Shown: positions 11,695 to 36,433 of the stretch, in pieces
Layout: each line of letters begins with the position of its first letter
How positions within the stretch are numbered: position 1 is the stretch's first letter
Origin: Pseudomonadota bacterium
GTDB lineage: Bacteria; Pseudomonadota; Gammaproteobacteria; Steroidobacterales; Woeseiaceae
DNA length: 40,214 nucleotides
Reading direction: 5' to 3'
Assembly: GCA_022567295.1 (NCBI GenBank)
Contig: JADFHE010000026.1
Coordinates: forward strand, 1 to 40,214
The notes under the pieces: generated by a model
Database searches by the model: none
What the model was told of the DNA's origin: nothing
Seen by the model: only the letters and a program-made list of their open reading frames with translations
Made by a program: the position numbers and the translations under genes

Positions 11695-14358
11695 TTATGC
11701 GGCGAGTTGCCGCAGCACGTAATGCAGGATGCCGCCGTTCTCGTAATAGTCACGTTCTTTGGGCGTATCAATACGAACTTGAACCTTGAACGTGATTGCG
11801 TCACCGTCGGCTGGCGTTGCGATCACAGTCACCGTTTTCGCGTTCGGGTCGGTCTGGCCTGAAATCGCATAGGTCTCCTTGCCCGTCAGTCCGAGCGACG
11901 TAGCATCCTGACCTTCGAGAAATTGCAACGGCAGCACGCCCATGCCAATCAGGTTGGAACGATGAATACGTTCGAAACTTTTTGCGATGACGGCTTTGAC
12001 GCCGAGTAGCAGAGTGCCCTTGGCCGCCCAGTCGCGCGATGATCCGGTGCCATACTCGCTGCCCGCGATGACAACCAGCGGCGTGCCTTCCTCGCGATAC
12101 CTGACGGACGCGTCGAAAATCGACATCTGTTCTCCGCTGGGCTGATGGCAGGTCCAGCCACCTTCGGTGCCCGGTGCCAATAAATTGCGCAATCGAATAT
12201 TAGCGAACGTGCCGCGCATCATGACTTCGTGATTGCCACGGCGTGAGCCGTAGGAATTGAAGTCGACCGGCTTGACGCCTTGTGCCTTGAGATATTCGGC
12301 GGCAGGACTGTCGGCGGCAATGCCGCCGGCCGGTGAAATATGATCGGTAGTCACCGAGTCGCCGAGCAATGCCAGGGTGCGTGCACCTTCGATGTTGCTG
12401 ACTGCGGCGGGGTCTTTGCTCATACCTTCAAAGTACGGCGGGTTCTTGACGTAGGTCGAGTTAGCGTCCCAGGTGTAAATCTCGCCTTCGGGCGAATCGA
12501 TGTTTTTCCAGTTCGCATCGCCTTCGAAAACGCTGCTGTAGCTGGACTTGAACATGCTCGAATCGATGTTCTTACCGACGGCTTCCTGAACTTCCGCCTG
12601 ACTGGGCCAGATGTCCTTCATGTAAACCGGGTTGCCGTCCTGATCATCGCCGAGCGAATCGTTGTACAGGTCCACATCCATATTTCCCGCGAGGGCGTAG
12701 GCGACGACGAGCGGTGGCGATGCCAGGAAGCTGTCCTTTACGAGGGCGTGAATTCGGCCTTCGAAATTACGGTTGCCGGACAATACGCTGGTGCCGACGA
12801 TGTTGCCGCTCTGCACAGCCGCAGCGATTTCAGGCATCAAAGGCCCGGAGTTGCCGATGCAGGTTGTACAGCCGTAGCCAACAGTATAAAAACCCAACGC
12901 ACCGAGATCGTCCAGGAGGCCCGATTTCTCGAGATAGTCTGTAACCACTCGTGATCCGGGCGCGAGACTCGTTTTGACCCATGGCTTCACCTGCAAGCCT
13001 TTTTCATTAGCCTTCCTGGCGACCAGACCCGCCGCTATCATGACAGCCGGGTTGGAGGTGTTGGTACAACTTGTGATAGCAGCGATCAAAATCGCGCCAT
13101 CTCGAATTTCAGTATCCGTACCATGGATGTTGGCGATTGCACTGCCGCCTTGCTTCCGATCCGCAATCGTTGTTTCCAGGTGCCTGGCGTAGGTTTGCGC
13201 TGCTGCGGTCAATGCGATGCGGTCCTGAGGACGTTTGGGACCCGCAATACTGGGTACGACGTCGTTCATGTCGAGCTCCAGGGTGTCGCTGTAGAGGGCA
13301 TCAGGCTCGCCATCGTATCGCCACATGCCCTGTTCCTTGGTGTACGCTTCAATGAGTTCGCGTTGCTCAGCGTCACGGCCGGACAATTCCAGATAAACTA
13401 ACGTTTCGCCATCAATCGGGAAGATGGCGCAGGTTGATCCAAATTCCGGCGCCATATTGCTCAACGTTGCACGATCGGCCAACGGCATGCGTGAGAGGCC
13501 ATCGCCGAAGAATTCGACAAATTTACCGACGACACCTTTATTGCGCAGCATTTCGGTGACTGTCAGCACGAGATCCGTTGCCGTAGTACCCTCTTTGAGC
13601 TTGCCCGTAAGCTTGAAGCCGATGACGTTTGGAATGAGCATCGTAATGGGCTGGCCAAGCATCGCTGCTTCTGCCTCAATGCCGCCGACACCCCAACCAA
13701 GAATGCCCAGGCCATTGATCATTGTCGTGTGCGAATCAGTGCCGACAAGCGTGTCAGGATAGGCTGAACGAGTACCATTCTTATCGACATCAAAAACGAC
13801 CCGGCTCAAGTACTCGAGATTGACCTGGTGAACGATCCCGGTATTTGGCGGTACGACACGGAAATTTTTAAATGCGGTCTGGCCCCAGCGCAGAAAGGAG
13901 TAGCGCTCCTTGTTGCGAAGGAACTCTATCTTGTTGTTTAAATCCAGAGCATTGGCGGCGCCGTAATTATCAACCTGGACTGAGTGGTCTATCACGAGCT
14001 CCGCTGGCGACAAAGGATTAATACTTTCTGCAGAACCACCCAGTTTGACGACCGCATCGCGCATCGCGGCGAGATCCACGACGGCGGGCACACCCGTGAA
14101 GTCTTGCAGGATGACGCGCGAGGGTGTGAATGAAATTTCCGTGCTCGGAGCGGTTTTTGGATCCCAGTTCGCGAGAGCGAGAATATCGTCGCGCGTGACG
14201 TCTCGCCCATCTTCGTGGCGCAACAGGTTTTCCAGCAGGATTTTGAGGGAGTAGGGAAGGCGATCGACGTGGCCTTCTTTCACAGCGTCGAGGCGAAAAA
14301 TCTCAAATTCATTGCCGCCGACCTCAAGCGCCGAACGCGCGCCAAAGCTGTCCTTCAT
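11695..14358 (-). CDS. acnA: Aconitate hydratase A
   Basis: Isomerises citrate to isocitrate in the TCA cycle. The 887-residue monomeric [4Fe-4S] enzyme has the IRP/AcnA layout. Cluster cysteines are in [10 protein letters not shown] (about 430) and [13 protein letters not shown] (about 495 and 498). The C-terminal swivel domain contains [27 protein letters not shown] and [22 protein letters not shown] seven bases before the ATG is a good ribosome site. The sirtuin gene begins one base after its stop. An exact TATAAT lies about 54 bases upstream of the start. Confidence 0.97.
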
Positions 14359-20358: not shown

Positions 20359-20491
20359 GCACCAGAGCCTTTCATGGGCGAGAGTCTTTTGTGAACCATA
20401 AACCAGTGTAGACTTGCGCGCGCAAAGCGCGAATCATACACGAACTAACCCTTACCAGACGGCGGATTTGCCGTACGGAGCATGCCAGGCA

Positions 20492-21883
20492 ATGAGTGAC
20501 AGGGGATATCGCATCGAGAAGGACAGCATGGGCGAACTTCAGGTCCCGGAAGAGGCACTTTGGGGTGCGCAGACGCAACGCGCCGTCGATAATTTCCCGA
20601 TCTCCGGGCTCCCCATGCCGCGCCAGTTCATCGCCGCACTGGGTCTCGTCAAATGGGCTGCGGCGGGTGCTAATTCTGAGTTGGGACTCCTGAAGAGCGA
20701 CATTGCCGCAGCTATTCAGCAGGCCGCATTGGCAGTGTCTGAGGGCGAGCACGACCAGCACTTTCCGATCGACGTATTTCAGACCGGATCGGGCACCAGT
20801 TCGAATATGAATGCCAATGAAGTCATTTCTCATCTGGCGACTGAGTCGATGGGCGCTGACGTGCATCCGAACGATCACGTCAATATGAGTCAGAGCAGTA
20901 ACGATGTGATACCGACCTGCGTTCATGTGAGCGCCGCGATAGCCATTCATTCGAAGCTGCTACCGGCGCTGGAGCATCTGTCCAAGGTATTGGAAACCAA
21001 AGCGAATGAAACCCGCGATGTTGTCAAGACAGGACGCACTCACTTGATGGATGCCATGCCCGTAACACTCGGGCAGGAACTCGGTGGTTGGCGTGCGCAG
21101 ATCGATCACGGAGCGGAGCGACTGGCGGACACCATGAAGCGCCTCGTAGCACTGGCGCAAGGCGGCACGGCGGTAGGCACTGGTATCAATGCGCACTCCC
21201 GTTTCGGTGAGAAAGTCGCTGTGTTACTCAGCGAGAAGACGGGTATTCCCTTCACCTCGGCGGCGTCAAAATTTGAGGGTCTCAGCAGTCAGGATGCTGC
21301 GGTCGAGACGTCTGGCCAGCTGCGAGTGCTCGCGGTCAGTTTGACAAAGATCAGCAACGATCTGCGCTGGATGAATTCCGGACCGCTGGCCGGCATTGGC
21401 GAGATCGAACTGCCGGCACTGCAGCCTGGCTCGAGCATAATGCCGGGCAAGGTAAATCCTGTCATACCCGAGGCTGTGGCGATGGTCTGTGCTCAAGTCA
21501 TTGGTAACGATGCGACGATCGCGATGGGTGGACAGGCCGGCAACTTCCAGCTTAATGTCATGTTGCCCGTTGTAGCGTACAACCTGCTGCAAAGCATAGA
21601 ACTACTGGCCAACGCCAGCATCTGCCTGGCGGACAAGGCGATCGCGGGCTTCACGGTCAATACCGACAACATCAATCGTGCGCTGGATCGCAACCCGATC
21701 CTCGTAACCGCACTCAATCCGGTCATTGGCTACGAGAAAGGTGCTGCAGTTGCAAAGGCGGCTTACGAGCAGGGGCGGCCCATCAAGGAGGTCGCTCGTG
21801 AGATGACCGACCTGACCGATGAGGAGCTTGACCGGCTACTGGATCCTGCCGAACTCACCGAGGGCGGAATCAAACATCAATAA
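20492..21883 (+). CDS. fumC: Class II fumarate hydratase
   Basis: Iron-independent hydration of fumarate to malate in the TCA cycle. The 463-residue protein from ATG 20492 (GGAG eleven bases upstream) has YRIEKDSMGELQVPEEALWG, TGSGTSSNMNANEV, KTGRTHLMDAMPVTLGQE and the signature GSSIMPGKVNPVIPEA. The longer frame to 20414 adds 26 residues not seen in the family. A NUDIX gene starts four bases after its stop. Confidence 0.97.
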   Translation: MSDRGYRIEKDSMGELQVPEEALWGAQTQRAVDNFPISGLPMPRQFIAALGLVKWAAAGANSELGLLKSDIAAAIQQAALAVSEGEHDQHFPIDVFQTGSGTSSNMNANEVISHLATESMGADVHPNDHVNMSQSSNDVIPTCVHVSAAIAIHSKLLPALEHLSKVLETKANETRDVVKTGRTHLMDAMPVTLGQELGGWRAQIDHGAERLADTMKRLVALAQGGTAVGTGINAHSRFGEKVAVLLSEKTGIPFTSAASKFEGLSSQDAAVETSGQLRVLAVSLTKISNDLRWMNSGPLAGIGEIELPALQPGSSIMPGKVNPVIPEAVAMVCAQVIGNDATIAMGGQAGNFQLNVMLPVVAYNLLQSIELLANASICLADKAIAGFTVNTDNINRALDRNPILVTALNPVIGYEKGAAVAKAAYEQGRPIKEVAREMTDLTDEELDRLLDPAELTEGGIKHQ

Positions 21884-30112: not shown

Positions 30113-31465
30113 GTGAGCAGAACCGTACCGAAAAATGATTGGCATCCCGCTAGCTGGCAGAGCAGGGAGGCCTTGCAACAGGCATCCTATCCGGATCAAG
30201 CAGCCCTGGACCGGGCCGTCAGCGACCTGAGCCGCCTGCCTCCCATCACGACGTCGTGGGAGGTCGATGAACTTAAGACCCTGATTGCGAAGGCGCAGCG
30301 AGGTGAGGCTTTCGTCCTGCAAGGCGGCGATTGCGCCGAGACGTTCGATGAGTGTACCTCCGAGAATATCGTAGCCAAGCTCAAGATCCTGTTGCAGATG
30401 AGCCTTGTAATGATTTACGGGCTGAAGAAACCTGTCGTGCGAATTGGTCGCATGGCGGGGCAGTACGCGAAGCCGCGCTCGGCCGATACTGAGACACGTG
30501 ATGGGACGACGTTGCCGAGCTTCCGCGGTGACTTGATTAACCGCAGCGGCTTTACGGCCGATGAGCGCATTCCGGACCCACAGATGATTCTGCGCGGTTA
30601 TGAAAGATCGGCATTGACGTTGAACTTCGTCCGTTCATTGATCGACGGCGGTTTCGCGGATCTTCACCACCCGGAATACTGGGACCTTGAGTGGGTTGGG
30701 CATTCGCCGGCGGCTTCCGACTATCACGACATCGTCTCATCCATCTCTGATTCACTGGATTTCCTGGAGACGGTCTCGGGACGTCAGTTCCATCACACGC
30801 AGAGGGCCGATATTTACGCGGCGCATGAAGGTCTGCATTTGCATTACGAACAGGCACAAACGCGATATCTTGACCGTCGCGAGCGCTGGTACAACCTGAC
30901 GACGCACTTCCCATGGATCGGTATGCGTACGGCGCAGCTGGACGGCGCACACATTGAGTATTTTCGCGGCATCGCAAACCCGGTTGGCGTCAAGATCGGT
31001 CCCGGGATGACGCAGGAGTGGTTGCAAGGGATCGTCGCGGTGCTAAATCCCAACAATGAACCGGGCCGCCTGACATTGATTCACCGTTTTGGCGCCAAAT
31101 CGATCAAAGATCACTTGCCGGACATGATCCGCACGGTTAAGAAAATGGGCACGACCGTGCTGTGGGTCTGTGATCCGATGCACGGCAACACCGAGACCAC
31201 GTCGGACGGTACGAAGACACGTCGTTTCGATAATATCGTTTCGGAACTCGAGTCCGCATTCAAAGTGCATCAGTCCATGGGCAGTTTCCTGGGTGGCGTA
31301 CACCTCGAACTGACCGGCGAAAACGTCACTGAATGCACCGGCGGTGCACGCGGATTGACGGACGCGGACTTGGCTCGTGCTTACAAGTCGACCGTCGATC
31401 CAAGGTTGAATTACGAGCAGGCCATGGAAATCGCGATGCGGATAGCCGGCTTAGACAAGCAGTAG
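30113..31465 (+). CDS. Class II 3-deoxy-7-phosphoheptulonate synthase
   Basis: First step of the shikimate pathway: condensation of phosphoenolpyruvate and erythrose 4-phosphate. The 450-residue protein belongs to the plant-like class II, unrelated in sequence to E. coli AroFGH. Key segments are FVLQGGDCAETFDECTSENI (metal-binding Cys about 73), KPVVRIGRMAGQYAKPRS, GTTLPSFRGDLIN, HEGLHLHYEQA, WIGMRTAQLDGAHIEYFRG and WVCDPMHGNT. The start is GTG 30113; the upstream GGGA is 13 bases away, so initiation may be weak. The gene stands alone, divergent from the lysine catabolic pair. Confidence 0.95.
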   Translation: MSRTVPKNDWHPASWQSREALQQASYPDQAALDRAVSDLSRLPPITTSWEVDELKTLIAKAQRGEAFVLQGGDCAETFDECTSENIVAKLKILLQMSLVMIYGLKKPVVRIGRMAGQYAKPRSADTETRDGTTLPSFRGDLINRSGFTADERIPDPQMILRGYERSALTLNFVRSLIDGGFADLHHPEYWDLEWVGHSPAASDYHDIVSSISDSLDFLETVSGRQFHHTQRADIYAAHEGLHLHYEQAQTRYLDRRERWYNLTTHFPWIGMRTAQLDGAHIEYFRGIANPVGVKIGPGMTQEWLQGIVAVLNPNNEPGRLTLIHRFGAKSIKDHLPDMIRTVKKMGTTVLWVCDPMHGNTETTSDGTKTRRFDNIVSELESAFKVHQSMGSFLGGVHLELTGENVTECTGGARGLTDADLARAYKSTVDPRLNYEQAMEIAMRIAGLDKQ

Positions 31466-31628
31466 GTGTGGTAGTCGGCACCTGATTGAGATCGAATGAC
31501 CGCTTCGCAGCAGATAGGAGCCCTTCGCCAGATATGATGCTGACAGTCGGCTAATGACCCAAAGGGGCCTCTCGCAAAAGGGTTAGAATAAGAATCCGAA
31601 ATTTCGACCCGCTCATGGAATTTACGTA

Positions 31629-32036
31629 ATGAGAGTTTTCTTCTATGGCCTCTTTATGGACGAGAGAGTGCTTGCGACGAAGGGAATTAAGCCTACTAAC
31701 ATAAGTGTCGGCTTCGTAAACGGCTACGGACTGCACATCGGTGAGCGGGCGACATTGGTACGCCGTCCAAATGGCCGCGCCTACGGAGCCATGATGGATA
31801 TCGCTCCCAATGAGGCAACAGAATTGTATGCAGAGGATAGCGTCGCGGACTACCTGCCCGAACCTGTAACTGTCGAACTCATGGACGGCACGCAAGTCGA
31901 GGCAACTTGCTACAACTTGCCCAGCGCCAAAGTCACCGGGACCAACAAAGACTATGCGGAATCGCTATTGATGGTCGCGAACAGATTGGGTCTCCCAGAT
32001 TCTTATATTGATCAGATTAGGCAGGCGAGAGCATAG
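31629..32036 (+). CDS. Gamma-glutamylcyclotransferase-like (GGCT/AIG2 fold) protein
   Basis: A 135-residue protein beginning MRVFFYGLFMDERVL, the conserved Y-G-x-[LN]-M-x phosphate-loop-like start of the GGCT fold. It continues GFVNGYGLHIGERATLVRRP and AYGAMMDIAPNEATELYAED, where an acidic catalytic residue is expected. The family cleaves gamma-glutamyl groups to 5-oxoproline, but many small members are uncharacterised. It is the first gene of the left palindrome-rich island and has no close operon partner. Confidence 0.75.
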   Translation: MRVFFYGLFMDERVLATKGIKPTNISVGFVNGYGLHIGERATLVRRPNGRAYGAMMDIAPNEATELYAEDSVADYLPEPVTVELMDGTQVEATCYNLPSAKVTGTNKDYAESLLMVANRLGLPDSYIDQIRQARA

Positions 32037-32113
32037 CCAACAATCTGGTCTGTCGAATGTCTCCTTCTGGCTGTTTCCGGCCTGTCGTTTCGTTGATATC
32101 TCGGTGATTTGAG

Positions 32114-32258
32114 CGTCCGCTATTGAGAAAAGCAGACGTTCAGGAGTAAAGCTGGAAATATCGCCAATCCGTTGGCTGAGCAACGTCTGCTTTACCCCCG
32201 GAACCGGCCGTTGGGGTAATATCGGGGTCAAGGGCCGCTAATGACCCAAAGCGGACGG
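32114..32258. repeat. Palindrome family, copies 1-2 plus inverted arm
   Basis: Copy 1 (32114-32141): CGTCCGCT-loop-AGCAGACGTT. An inverted arm AACGTCTGCTTTA follows at about 32184-32196 and can pair with the right half of copy 1. Copy 2 (32238-32258) is CTAATGACCCAAAGCGGAC and supplies the ATG of the next gene. A decayed copy, AATGACCCAAAG, lies upstream at 31553-31564. Confidence 0.6.
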
Positions 32259-32546
32259 ACGCGGAGAAGCACAATACAAATACGAAAAACGAAGCCCGGC
32301 GATCTAGAACCATTACTTGCTAGTTACTCTGGCGTTAGTGGCGATAGTTGGTACGTGCTAGTGTGCAAGTACTGTACGGACAACCACACAATCACGGTCA
32401 AAGGCGCATCCAAGCAATCCAAGGATGCTCGGAGCGACGTCGCGCTGAAATTTCAGGCAGTTGGTTGGAGAATGGACGGTAGCATTCCGGTTTGCCCTAG
32501 ATGCTACAAACGCAAGGTCAAGTCAGGTCTATATCTTGACGATTAG
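32241..32546 (+). CDS. Small zinc-ribbon protein
   Basis: A 101-residue orphan protein with two C-x2-C knuckles, VLVCKYCTDNH (about 40-50) and IPVCPRCYKRK (about 82-92), likely to bind one zinc. The region between them (KGASKQSKDARSDVALKFQA) looks helical. Its ATG lies inside a palindrome copy, with AAGGG six bases upstream as ribosome site, so the first ten residues are repeat-derived. No function is known. The last 29 codons and the following repeat are duplicated in inverse orientation at the right edge of the window. Confidence 0.55.
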   Translation: MTQSGRTRRSTIQIRKTKPGDLEPLLASYSGVSGDSWYVLVCKYCTDNHTITVKGASKQSKDARSDVALKFQAVGWRMDGSIPVCPRCYKRKVKSGLYLDD

Positions 32547-32583
32547 CGAGATTGCCAATGACCGCTCCTGGCCGAAAGCGGAC
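32457..32583 (+). repeat. 127-bp perfect inverted repeat, left copy
   Basis: Identical base for base to the reverse complement of 40088-40214. It holds the 3' end of the zinc-ribbon gene, its stop, 15 spacer bases and one palindrome up to GCGGAC, where identity ends. The full length is unknown because the other copy is cut by the window edge. Confidence 0.95.
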
Positions 32584-32684
32584 TGTCATATTGGCGATAT
32601 TCGAGCCGACTGAACGGCCGCTATCGGGAAAAGCGGACATTCAGCTGATAGGATTAATGACTCAGGGCGTGAAGCGGACAGTCA
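32555..32684. repeat. Palindrome family, copies 3-5
   Basis: Three consecutive copies lie at 32555-32586 (AATGACCGCT...AGCGGAC), 32611-32644 (TGAACGGCCGCT...AGCGGACATTCAG) and 32655-32684 (TAATGACTCAGG...AAGCGGACAGTCA). They have the same orientation with similar unit sizes, separated by unrelated 10-25 base spacers. Confidence 0.7.
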
Positions 32685-32698
32685 GCCTCATTGAGAAA

Positions 32699-32998
32699 AT
32701 GAATAATTCAGATAGATGCATTCACTGTCATCATAAGTTTTCATATATAAAAAAGTTATGGAATCTTGAAAAGAACGTTATTGAATGCCCACAATGCAAA
32801 GAGAAATCAGCGCTCGTGTACCCTAGCCAAAAATTTAAATTCATTTATAAATTAGTGATTCTTATCACCTGTGTTCTAACATTGGCTTCCATACCATGGT
32901 TTCCGTATTTTTTCCCTGTTGGCTTAATATCTATACATTTTTTGAGCATGTACCCATACAAGAATATGAGCTTTGAGAAAATAACAAACAATCCATAA
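32699..32998 (+). CDS. Small membrane protein with CxxC-19-CxxC zinc ribbon
   Basis: A 99-residue protein: CIHC at 7-10 and ECPQCKEK near 29-36 form a zinc ribbon. A membrane segment follows (KLVILITCVLTLASIPWFPY, about 50-69) and then FFPVGLISIHFLSMYP. The layout resembles the short cxxc_20_cxxc proteins found sporadically in bacteria. I placed the start at ATG 32699; the 49 codons upstream in the same frame are translation of palindromes. The gene is strikingly AT-rich compared with all neighbours, a sign of recent transfer. Its TAA stop lies inside an attC-like site. Confidence 0.55.
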   Translation: MNNSDRCIHCHHKFSYIKKLWNLEKNVIECPQCKEKSALVYPSQKFKFIYKLVILITCVLTLASIPWFPYFFPVGLISIHFLSMYPYKNMSFEKITNNP

Positions 32999-33058
32999 CC
33001 ATGGGTTCCACGAGATGTCGTCGCTTCGCTCAGACACACGGGAACCCGGTCGTTAGGA
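32992..33058 (+). repeat. attC-like recombination site
   Basis: From outside in: TCCATAAC (32992-32999) pairs with GTTAGGA (33052-33058) apart from one bulged A; short unpaired spacers CAT and GGTC follow; then GGGTTCC (33003-33009) pairs perfectly with GGAACCC (33041-33047); a 31-base central region contains TCGCTTCGCTC. This R''-L''-L'-R' order, with a CGTTAG right end and the cassette stop codon in the left box, is the architecture of integron attC sites. GTTAGGA departs from GTTRRRY at its last base. No second attC or integrase is in view. Confidence 0.4.
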
Positions 33059-33070
33059 ATTCAATCGAGT

Positions 33071-33156
33071 GACGGGTGTTGGCCGAAAGCTGCCCTTCAA
33101 AATAGCAGTATTTAACCTGGTCGAACGACCGCTAACGGAAGAAGAAGACGTTCGAA
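33071..33156. repeat. Palindrome family, degenerate copies 6-7
   Basis: 33071-33099 (GACGGGTGTTGGCCGAAAGC and onward) and 33121-33156 (TCGAACGACCGCT...GACGTTCGA, outer 7-bp arms intact). Both are more decayed than the copies near 32.6 and 38.6 kb. They occupy most of the gap between the AT-rich gene and rluE. Confidence 0.5.
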
Positions 33157-33195
33157 TCCGATCAAATCTGGCGCTGTCTGCCTGTTCGGTGGGGA

Positions 33196-33801
33196 CTAAG
33201 CGTTAACAAGTAGGAGTGCGTTCCAGGCGTCCTTCGTCGACATTTCTCGTGATTTGCCGGGTAACAGGCCATCGAGCGCCCACGGGCCAACGGAGTATCG
33301 AATCAGCCGCAATGTTGGCAGACCAACGGCTGCCGTCATGTGTCGCACCTGCCGATTACGACCTTCGGACAACGTAATCTCTATCCAGTTATCCGCCACA
33401 TTCTTGCGGTGGCGTATCGGTGGATCACGTTCCCAAAGCTCCGCCGGTGCGTCGATATTCTTCGCCGTTACAGCCTTCGCCATGCCATCCTTGAGTTCAA
33501 CACCGTTGAGCAGCGCGCCAATCTGGTCGTCAGTCAGGGTTCCCTCGACTTGCGCCCAGTAGCGCTTCATGATCCCTGATTCGGGTTGGCTGATCTTCGC
33601 CTGCAGGCGACCGTCGTCGGTGAGGAGCAACAAACCCTCACTATCGAAATCGAGTCGGCCGGCCGGGTACACGCCCGGCACCTTGACGTAGTCAGCCAAT
33701 GTGGCACGACCGTCTGGATCAGTGAACTGGCAGAGCACCCGGTAGGGCTTGTTCACAACAATCAACACTTCTTGTGGTCCCCGGCGATCTGTACAATGCA
33801 T
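33196..33801 (-). CDS. rluE: 23S rRNA pseudouridine synthase, RluE-like
   Basis: A 201-residue RsuA-family enzyme without an S4 domain, like RluE, which modifies U2457 of 23S rRNA. Catalytic D51 lies in YPAGRLDFDSEGLLLLTDDG (45-64). KRYWAQVEG and EGRNRQVRHMTAAVGLPTLRL are also conserved. ATG 33801 gives a short unconserved leader before VLIVVNKPY. In enterics rluE is divergent from icd; here the divergent position holds an icd remnant. Confidence 0.93.
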   Translation of the reverse strand: MHCTDRRGPQEVLIVVNKPYRVLCQFTDPDGRATLADYVKVPGVYPAGRLDFDSEGLLLLTDDGRLQAKISQPESGIMKRYWAQVEGTLTDDQIGALLNGVELKDGMAKAVTAKNIDAPAELWERDPPIRHRKNVADNWIEITLSEGRNRQVRHMTAAVGLPTLRLIRYSVGPWALDGLLPGKSREMSTKDAWNALLLVNA

Positions 33802-33827
33802 GCTTTTCCCGGCCCCCTGGACCCGGC

Positions 33828-33923
33828 ATGCGCTACCATCATATCAACGTCACCGCCGATGGCGCTTCGATAACAGCAAACCCGGACCGCAGCCTGAATG
33901 TTCCGGATTTTCCTAATGGATGA
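33828..33923 (+). pseudogene. icd: 5' remnant of isocitrate dehydrogenase gene
   Basis: A 31-codon frame from ATG 33828 reads MRYHHINVTADGASITANPD then RSLNVPDFP before a TGA at 33921. This follows the N terminus of gammaproteobacterial NADP-isocitrate dehydrogenase (M-x-Y-x-x-I-x-V ... G-x-x-I-T-x-N ... SLNVPD-x-P), after which I-I-P-F-I-E-G-D-G-I-G should come but does not. Position and orientation, divergent from rluE, also match the normal icd locus. The frame ends ten bases before the glycosylase start, so the old icd promoter and leader may now serve that gene. An intact icd or an unrelated replacement must exist elsewhere. Confidence 0.7.
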
Positions 33924-33932
33924 TCAAGGCGC

Positions 33933-34571
33933 TTGATCGACGCGGCGATATTCGACAAAGAGTGTCGTGACTGCCCGAGGCTCGCGCGGTTTCTCGATGA
34001 CGTAAAGGATCGTTTCCCGGACTATTACTGCCGTCCCGTGCCACCGTTCGGCGCCGCCGACGCGCGATTCCTGATTGTTGGGCTCGCGCCAGGCATGCAT
34101 GGCGCCAATCGAACGGGGCGGCCTTTTACCGGGGATCACGCGGGCATTCTCCTGTATCAGATGCTGCACAAATATGGCTTTGCGAGCCGCGATCATTCCG
34201 AGGCCGCCGACGATGGCCTGACCCTCATCGATTGCCGCATAACGAATGCGGTCAAGTGCTTGCCACCCGGCAACAAGCCGGTGGGTGCCGAGATGAACAC
34301 ATGTAACAGGTTCCTTGCCAATGAACTGCGAACAATGCCGGAGAACTCTGTGGTCGTGGCGCTTGGCGGAATTGCACACCGGGCCATCATCAAGGCGGTT
34401 GGCGAACGGCAGCTAGAGTTCAAGTTCGGACATGCAGCACTGCATGACCTCGATAGCTTTCGATTGCTCGATTCGTATCACTGCAGTCGATACAACACCA
34501 ATACGCGCCGGTTAACAGAGGCAATGTTCGATGCGATATTTGCACAAGTGCGGGAGATGCTGGATAACTAG
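33933..34571 (+). CDS. Uracil-DNA glycosylase, family 5-like (Fe-S UDGb)
   Basis: A 212-residue glycosylase removing uracil and other deaminated bases from DNA. The four [4Fe-4S] cysteines are C11 and C14 (ECRDCPRL), C109 and C124. Motif A GLAPGMHGANRTGRPFTGD (50-68) has Asn where families 1 and 4 have Asp or Glu, and the C-terminal CSRYNTNTRRLT is the UDGb form of the HPS motif. TTG 33933 is the only start in frame after a stop at 33921. Its stop overlaps the longest uvrC frame, forming a repair operon. Confidence 0.92.
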   Translation: MIDAAIFDKECRDCPRLARFLDDVKDRFPDYYCRPVPPFGAADARFLIVGLAPGMHGANRTGRPFTGDHAGILLYQMLHKYGFASRDHSEAADDGLTLIDCRITNAVKCLPPGNKPVGAEMNTCNRFLANELRTMPENSVVVALGGIAHRAIIKAVGERQLEFKFGHAALHDLDSFRLLDSYHCSRYNTNTRRLTEAMFDAIFAQVREMLDN

Positions 34572-34603
34572 TGCCCGTCTTTGTTACGTTGACGGAGTGC
34601 CAA

Positions 34604-36433
34604 GTGAGTGACGACACGCCATTCGAGTTCAAATCTTTTCTGCGGAGCCTGACACACCGGCCCGGCGTGTACCGCATGCTCGATGCGAAGCACAAGGTCA
34701 TTTATGTCGGCAAAGCGCGCGACCTCAAAAAACGCGTTTCCAGCTACTTCAATCGTACCCACGACGCGCCCAAAACGGCGGCGATGATGGAGCAGGTTGC
34801 ACGAGTTGAAGTTACCGTGGCGAACACCGAGGCGGAGGCGTTGATTCTTGAATACAGCCATATCAAACAACTCAAGCCGCGTTTCAATATTTTGCTCCGG
34901 GATGACAAGAGTTATCCGTACATTTACGCCTCCACCGAGCATGACTTCCCGCGACTCAAGTTTCATCGCGGGCCGCGGCGGGGAAAGGGGCGCTATTTCG
35001 GACCCTATCCGAGTACCTCAGCGGTACGGAAAACACTGAACGAACTCGAAAAGCTGTTTCTGATTCGTAACTGCGCCGACAGTTTTTTTCGCAATCGCAC
35101 GCGACCGTGCCTGCAGTATCAGATCAAACGCTGCACGGCGCCATGTGTCGATCTGATTGCCAAAGAGCAATACGCTAAAGATATCGACGCCGCCATATTG
35201 TTTCTTGACGGCAAAAATAAAAGCGTCGTGAATTCCTTTGTCGAGCGCATGGAGCAGGCCGCCGAAAAACAGGATTACGAGCAGGCGGCACGTCTGCGGG
35301 ATCAAATTTCGAAGTTGAAGGAAATTGAGGCGCGTCAACTTGTAAAGCGCACCAGCAACATGGATCTCGATATCCTGGGATTCGCGTCCAATAGTGCGAT
35401 TCATTGCGTCACGGTCATGTTTATCCGCAACGGCGCGGTCATCGGCAGTCGCGATCATTTTCCTCGCCTGCACGGCGAAACCGACAAACAGAAGATCCTC
35501 AACGCCTTTGTCGCACAGTATTATCTGGCCCGCGACGCGCCAGCCGAAATTATCATCGAGGCCGAAATCGAAGACGGCGAATTACTGCAGCAGGAATTGA
35601 CGGAGCGTGTAGGCCATAAGGTCCGGATTCGATCAAGAGTCAGGGGAGACCGCGTGCGCTGGTTACAGATGGCGAGGACCAATGCCGAGCAGGGTCTGAA
35701 CCTCAAGGTGGCAAGCAATGCGACGATCAGGCGTCAGTTCCTGGCGCTCGGCGAAGCTCTTGAGCTGGACGACACGCCGCAGCGATTGGAATGTTTCGAT
35801 GTGAGCCACACGTCAGGGGAAGCGACCGTGGGCTCCTGCGTGGTCTTCAATACGGCCGGCGCGCTGAAGAGTGATTACCGAAGATTCAACCTCAGTCCCG
35901 CGGCAGCTGGCGACGACTACGGTGCGATGTCTGAAGCGTTGCAACGTCGCTACGCTCGGGTGAAGAAAGGCGAAGTACCAATGCCCGATATTCTCTTCGT
36001 CGATGGCGGCAAAGGACAGTTGGCAGAGGCAATGAAAGTGCTCGGTGAACTGGAGCTCGACTGGCTGACTGTCGTTGGCGTCTCGAAAGGGCGGTCGCGG
36101 CGACCCGGAGCGGAACAGCTGTTCCGTCCGGGTAAGAAATTGCCAATGACGCTGCCTCCTGATTCACCGGCATTGCTGTTGATCCAACAGATTCGCGATG
36201 AGGCGCATCGATTTGCAATCACAGGCCATCGACAACGCCGCGCAAAGGCACGTCGAACGTCCAGGCTCGAAGAGATTCCAGGGCTGGGTCCGAAGAGACG
36301 CCGGGAATTACTGCGCCAGTTCGGCGGCCTGCAAGGCGTGACCGGGGCAGGGGTTGACGATCTTGCGGAAGTACATGGTATTAGTCGAAAATTGGCTGAA
36401 ACCATATACAATGCGCTGCATCTGGATGGCTGA
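34604..36433 (+). CDS. uvrC: Excinuclease ABC subunit C
   Basis: Makes both incisions in nucleotide excision repair. The 609-residue protein contains the GIY-YIG nuclease (RPGVYRMLDAKHKVIYVGKA, about 19-38), a cysteine cluster (CLQYQIKRCTAPC), the UVR UvrB-binding helix (EKQDYEQAARLRDQISKL), the RNase H-like EndoV half (ECFDVSHTSGEATVGSCVVF; VDGGKGQL) and tandem helix-hairpin-helix (IPGLGPKRRRELLRQFGG). I chose GTG 34604 (GGAG six bases upstream) over GTG 34571. pgsA follows 18 bases later. Confidence 0.97.
   Translation: MSDDTPFEFKSFLRSLTHRPGVYRMLDAKHKVIYVGKARDLKKRVSSYFNRTHDAPKTAAMMEQVARVEVTVANTEAEALILEYSHIKQLKPRFNILLRDDKSYPYIYASTEHDFPRLKFHRGPRRGKGRYFGPYPSTSAVRKTLNELEKLFLIRNCADSFFRNRTRPCLQYQIKRCTAPCVDLIAKEQYAKDIDAAILFLDGKNKSVVNSFVERMEQAAEKQDYEQAARLRDQISKLKEIEARQLVKRTSNMDLDILGFASNSAIHCVTVMFIRNGAVIGSRDHFPRLHGETDKQKILNAFVAQYYLARDAPAEIIIEAEIEDGELLQQELTERVGHKVRIRSRVRGDRVRWLQMARTNAEQGLNLKVASNATIRRQFLALGEALELDDTPQRLECFDVSHTSGEATVGSCVVFNTAGALKSDYRRFNLSPAAAGDDYGAMSEALQRRYARVKKGEVPMPDILFVDGGKGQLAEAMKVLGELELDWLTVVGVSKGRSRRPGAEQLFRPGKKLPMTLPPDSPALLLIQQIRDEAHRFAITGHRQRRAKARRTSRLEEIPGLGPKRRRELLRQFGGLQGVTGAGVDDLAEVHGISRKLAETIYNALHLDG

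Follow-up and report, generated by a model that had tools for sequence, protein, structure and literature searches.

What does a frame of 31 codons represent when it lies between a pseudouridine synthase gene and a uracil-DNA glycosylase gene in a member of the Woeseiaceae, a family abundant in marine sediment? The window, that is, the whole stretch of 40,214 nucleotides analysed here, carries such a frame at 33828-33923. A sequence-only reading had taken it for a stub of icd, the gene of NADP-isocitrate dehydrogenase, precisely replaced by a repair gene that might use the remaining stub as a leader peptide. The locus is made up of the following features:

33196-33801, minus strand: rluE-like pseudouridine synthase gene, divergent from the frame; a shorter start, GTG at 33768, is possible.
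33792-33797, plus strand: TACAAT box, probable -10 element of icd, conserved in the spacers and located 36 nt upstream of the icd ATG; it probably acts now as promoter of udg-uvrC.
33828-33923, plus strand: the 31-codon frame, consisting of the icd remnant, two out-of-frame codons and a chance TGA; the junction is read through as AAT GGA TGA.
33828-33915, plus strand: 5′ remnant of icd, comprising codons 1-29 and one further base, with 83% identity to residues 1-29 of the Icd of the relative G015.
33916-33936, plus strand: 3′ remnant of icd, its last codons MDDQGA and stop, in another frame than the stub; the stop TGA overlaps the TTG of udg.
33933-34571, plus strand: gene of a uracil-DNA glycosylase, family-5 (UDGb) like (udg; PF03167), with TTG as start; ancestral downstream neighbour of icd.
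34571-36433, plus strand: uvrC, downstream of udg (TIGR00194, 622.3 bits against a cutoff of 285.45).

The translation of the frame on the plus strand, MRYHHINVTADGASITANPDRSLNVPDFPNG followed by a stop, matched sequences in 55 of the 73 genus genomes when used as a query (E≤0.001), namely the window's own genome, two genomes with an icd relic (G004 and G011) and 52 that carry the 5′ end of icd. The best matches outside the own genome, in G107, G048, G015 and G037, had E values of 2.2e-11 to 3.6e-11; in these four, residues 1-29 of the stub share 83% identity with residues 1-29 of Icd, aligned from residue 1, and the intact Icd of close relatives is 446 aa long. A search of the PDB gave three matches in total at E≤10, all of them Icd N termini and each weak (E 0.07-0.46), and neither Pfam nor NCBIfam returned a match for this very short query. 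By homology, then, the frame is the N terminus of Icd, a real likeness and not a product of chance, as had been claimed from the start.

How was the rest of the gene lost? Regions upstream of udg were compared at 60 loci (56 in the genus, from 55 genomes with G051 represented twice, and 4 outside it), and 13 further genus genomes brought the genus set to 69 loci, which were searched with RluE, Icd and the glycosylase. A complete icd is present at 47 of these 69 loci, each with udg directly behind it, and rluE precedes icd at 39 of them; the stretch fetched for the other eight showed no rluE (G018, G019, G024, G032, G034, G045, G052 and G059). Homology to udg starts between -10 and +41 nt from the icd stop at 53 of the 54 genus loci that retain the end of icd, the exception being G100, where the distance is 194 nt. 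Outside the genus, the spacing is close in G063, a gap of about 0.8 kb separates the two genes in G075 and G088, and no icd was seen at the G067 locus. The uvrC gene follows udg at 45 of 48 loci searched, and the remaining three loci end before uvrC. Because the order icd-udg-uvrC is widespread in the relatives, udg is to be regarded as an old downstream neighbour rather than an incoming replacement, and icd and udg probably belong to one operon.

In the window, the neighbours lie as the sequence-only reading had placed them, with rluE divergent at 33196-33801 on the minus strand and the TTG of the glycosylase at 33933, 9 nt beyond the stop of the stub. The rluE product scores above the cutoff of TIGR00093, and its best named model is RluE NF008487 (E 5.5e-62, below the curated cutoff). 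The best solved match of the udg product is the uracil-DNA glycosylase 2d3y (E 1.6e-47, residues 10-207), which we take to be a family-5 enzyme; the homology extends over the whole domain, and the scores of family-4 models are far below their cutoffs. The gene is a predicted uracil-DNA glycosylase of family-5 (UDGb) like type.

After codon 29 of icd, the window sequence goes straight into ATGGATGATCAAGGCGCTTGA (33916-33936), which reads MDDQGA and stop. In the intact relative G037, icd ends with RHMDDQGT and stop in the corresponding place, and the overlap between icd stop and udg start (TTGA) is read likewise in both. These last codons had been missed by the sequence-only reading; they lie in a different frame from the stub, and in consequence the stub frame gains two foreign codons and a TGA. 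Since udg directly follows icd at all 47 complete-icd loci, the event is best described as an internal deletion of icd. Its left end would be the second base of codon 30 and its right end would lie immediately ahead of the last few codons, with a shift of frame, and about 1241 bases (around 1.24 kb) would be missing given an ancestor of 446 codons, the length in G015. The junction, whose parents are inferred from relatives, has no clear microhomology. Three observations, the homology to the Icd N terminus, a position that intact icd occupies in relatives and at which the opposite end of the gene survives as well, and the destroyed coding capacity (29 of about 446 codons left, with a frameshift at the junction), lead us to conclude with high confidence that the stub is what remains of the 5′ end of icd after a single internal deletion of about 1.24 kb, out of frame, inactivated the gene.

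Is this loss an isolated one? The state of icd at the locus was classed by hand in the 73 genus genomes. The gene is complete in 49, among them G101, whose copy begins at residue 36 next to a contig edge, cut by contig ends in 5 (G022, G030, G035, G058 and G100), broken in G038 by apparent frameshifts that also hit udg, and missing from the locus in 13 (G000, G001, G003, G004, G011, G013, G031, G040, G047, G050, G051, G053 and G060). The remaining five (G008, G028, G049, G102 and G109) yielded neither icd nor a udg close by; the first three of them were covered by a separate udg search. Read by eye, the scars take several forms: an in-frame deletion of icd left a 62-codon frame in G004, and the same deletion has lost its stop in G011; udg is fused to the first icd codons in G060; a "MHYDHI" scar followed by other sequence is seen in G053; nothing of icd is left in G013 and G047; and G050 keeps the icd tail only, behind a DAHP synthase gene. 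On a tree of udg plus uvrC with 44 rows, the label lost or kept requires 5 changes, of which well-supported branches force 4, and reading the same tree by eye with losses only gives seven, several inner branches being weak. On this tree the window belongs to a supported group (98/94) that has 14 rows, and icd is present in 10 of them. Thus, icd has been lost several times within the genus, leaving different scars, and the stub represents a clear case of ordinary gene loss. A literature search over titles and abstract openings returned nothing on icd loss in Woeseiaceae.

In five further icd-less relatives (G001, G003, G031, G040 and G051), udg lies directly behind the DAHP synthase gene and rluE was not found. 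The corresponding interval of the window, from the class-II DAHP synthase gene to rluE (31465-33195), holds small ORFs among dispersed repeats, one of the ORFs being gamma-glutamylcyclotransferase-like. The repeat is palindrome-like, reads CCGCTAATGACCCAAAGCGGACATT with a second form around TGGCCGAAAGCGGAC, and occurs at 31555, 32242, 32569, 37475, 38524, 38687 and 40088; the genome contains 52 sites with at most 3 mismatches, against 2 for the reversed pattern, with clusters on contigs C11, C33 and C76.

What remains in front of udg also includes a probable promoter. TACAAT occurs in 44 of 47 rluE-icd or rluE-udg spacers and TATAAT in one more, a conservation that the coding sequence of rluE could partly explain, should that gene start at 33801; in G013 and G047 the start of rluE was read as falling short of the box. 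The two spacers without even TAYAAT (G043 and G055) both have icd, and the most shared 8-mers, GTACAATG and TACAATGC, are each present in 43 of the 47. A consensus sigma-70 scan of 33600-34000 gave no site, so that it is conservation that marks the box. Since the box is retained in all seven rluE-linked loci without icd (TACAAT in six, TATAAT in one), udg-uvrC probably inherits the icd promoter, which would thus persist and now serve these two genes. The deletion may have survived because this promoter and the close stop/start junction that expresses udg-uvrC were spared.

Two other accounts of the junction have to be weighed against an internal deletion. An incoming glycosylase gene might have precisely replaced icd, as the sequence-only reading had it, and udg indeed begins directly behind the stub, in the place expected for the icd body. 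The comparison with sister genomes, which found complete icd directly before udg throughout the 47 loci, and the icd tail that persists between stub and udg together refute this replacement, to which we assign practically no chance. It could also be argued that the assembly joined both ends of an intact icd: the exact deletion was found in one MAG only, and a misassembly is therefore formally possible. A misjoined intact gene is not expected to carry residues absent from the 52 other N termini examined, as the stub does, and a comparable deletion is common to two separate MAGs (G004 and G011), which indicates that such deletions are real in the genus. We consider an artefact very improbable.

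A different matter is whether the stub, once formed, has been maintained as a leader peptide through which translation of the glycosylase is controlled or boosted. Its frame begins at the former icd start codon, runs through 31 codons and closes 9 nt before udg, behind a retained probable promoter box, and the in-frame fusion of the first icd codons to udg in G060 indicates that udg can adopt the icd start. Compared with 11 near relatives, the 29 codons show 5-9 nonsynonymous and 7-14 synonymous differences, an excess of synonymous changes that any recent relic would display. The intact gene, over the 55 pairs of these 11 relatives, shows a mean of 2.7 nonsynonymous and 8.0 synonymous differences, with a nonsynonymous maximum of 8; by codon counts alone the decay of the stub is not clear, and it is less striking than the loss of residues. 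Indeed, the stub has Thr9 where all 52 other Icd N termini (3 from outside the genus) have Pro, and its His4 and Arg21 are found in none of them (changes D4H, P9T and H21R). The presence of the short frame in a single genome also speaks against a leader: among the 73 genomes searched, in five of which the locus was not seen, it occurs in the window's own genome alone. A short frame conserved upstream of udg in relatives, such as a regulatory leader would show, was accordingly not found, and a conserved stand-alone small gene is rejected on the same count. Between G004 and G011, the shared relic shows 11 nonsynonymous and 2 synonymous differences in 63 codons; the corresponding numbers are 9 and 25 in 212 codons of udg (Fisher p 0.0006, relic against udg) and 11 and 17 in 196 codons of rluE. 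This relic changes without purifying selection; its stop is lost in G011, and G013 and G047 do without any stub. A maintained leader is thus unlikely. The stub peptide looks like decaying debris: its amino-acid sequence would no longer be selected, and it would be translated, if at all, only because it stands behind the old icd start and 9 nt before the udg TTG, which would couple udg to the upstream frame. Of the earlier proposal that the icd promoter drives a leader and the glycosylase, the probable box and the icd start region, both now before udg, stand, and a maintained leader is unlikely; the idea of capture would survive only as a promoter and start region inherited by genes that were already downstream.

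How can a genome afford to lose icd? Aconitase (11695-14358) and fumarase C (20414-21883) genes are both encoded within the window, and from their presence it had been expected that icd would be elsewhere. A PF00180 search of the own genome gave one match, which passes the LeuB model TIGR00169, and the G015 Icd used as query against the own assembly gave three, corresponding to two parts of LeuB and the stub, with no other icd; the assembly is 85.6% complete, and an icd moved elsewhere could therefore be missed. The PF03971 search identified one intact monomeric isocitrate dehydrogenase (IDH) at C58:38908-41109 (TIGR00178, 1239.8 against a cutoff of 950). The genome thus encodes an intact monomeric NADP-IDH, and no icd besides the stub was found in this assembly. 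Loss of icd may have been tolerated because the other enzyme would cover the reaction; the species retains another isocitrate dehydrogenase, and its icd survives as a deletion relic. Among the 13 icd-less genomes, 10 have a monomeric IDH, two (G003 and G053) a second type-I Icd and one (G047, 78% complete) neither; by hand counts, the 49 genomes with complete icd divide into 40 with monomeric IDH, 6 with a second Icd and 3 with neither, so that most of them hold a spare.

The lost protein may not have been a housekeeping enzyme. E. coli Lys344-Tyr345 and Tyr391 and their P. aeruginosa counterparts determine NADP use (PMC10574006). With positions matched to E. coli by motif and alignments, all 49 genus sequences of the local Icd have Gly-Phe in place of Lys344-Tyr345 and Phe in place of Tyr391; beyond the genus, Gly-Phe is combined with Tyr in G063, and Gly-Tyr with Phe in G075 and G088. 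The intact G015 Icd (C18:253915-255252) passes TIGR00183 and PRK07006, and NCBIfam models would still name the local Icd NADP-dependent. The second type-I Icd was found in 8 genomes, and all six sequences that were read retain Lys-Tyr and Tyr. Monomeric IDH occurs in 61 of the 73 genomes, with a partial match or pieces in four (G002, G032, G041 and G105). Two matches look broken or interrupted: the one in G109 (C62:1661-3790) has an internal TAG, and in G110 an additional copy (C35:4450-6576) is split into two pieces. A second Icd was found in none of the 61, and all 8 genomes with a second Icd are among the 12 without monomeric IDH (Fisher p 3.7e-8, from hand-entered counts and with genomes treated as unrelated). 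Because the local Icd lacks the canonical NADP-contact residues, the lost gene may have encoded an additional isozyme, shifted in its coenzyme site and possibly NAD-using. Joining these observations, we tentatively propose, at a little under an even chance, that the lost gene encoded, instead of the housekeeping NADP-Icd, a separate isozyme with shifted and possibly NAD-directed coenzyme use, at the head of an icd-udg-uvrC operon; that most genus genomes also keep one canonical NADP enzyme, either monomeric IDH or the Lys-Tyr-Tyr second type-I Icd and never both in 73; and that the isozyme was lost repeatedly, in seven rluE-linked cases with its promoter spared because two repair genes depend on it.

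The locus offers a readable case in which a probable repair operon lost the redundant TCA-cycle gene at its head. The series of scars in sister lineages, comprising a 29-codon stub, an in-frame relic, a fusion and a bare promoter box, could serve to explore which deletions operons tolerate, and the unusual coenzyme site of the lost enzyme, if true, would make the split between NADH and NADPH in the TCA cycle variable within one genus.

How does the locus compare with known systems? The protein whose N terminus the stub represents is the type I NADP-isocitrate dehydrogenase (icd; PF00180, TIGR00183), of which about 29 of 446 codons are left in the window. The family-5 UDGb 2d3y resembles the product of the gene adjoining the stub, aligned over residues 10-207, but concerns a genomic neighbour and no part of the lost gene. 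The type I Icd of E. coli carries Lys344-Tyr345 and Tyr391 where the local Icd of the genus carries Gly-Phe and Phe, and it has 416 residues against 446, the C terminus being longer in the genus. A parallel is Pseudomonas aeruginosa, where Icd and a monomeric-type IDH are found in one genome (PMC10574006). The same pair, type I together with type III isocitrate dehydrogenase, is present in 40 of the 49 complete-icd genomes of the genus, whereas the window's genome has lost the icd copy, in one of several losses within the genus.
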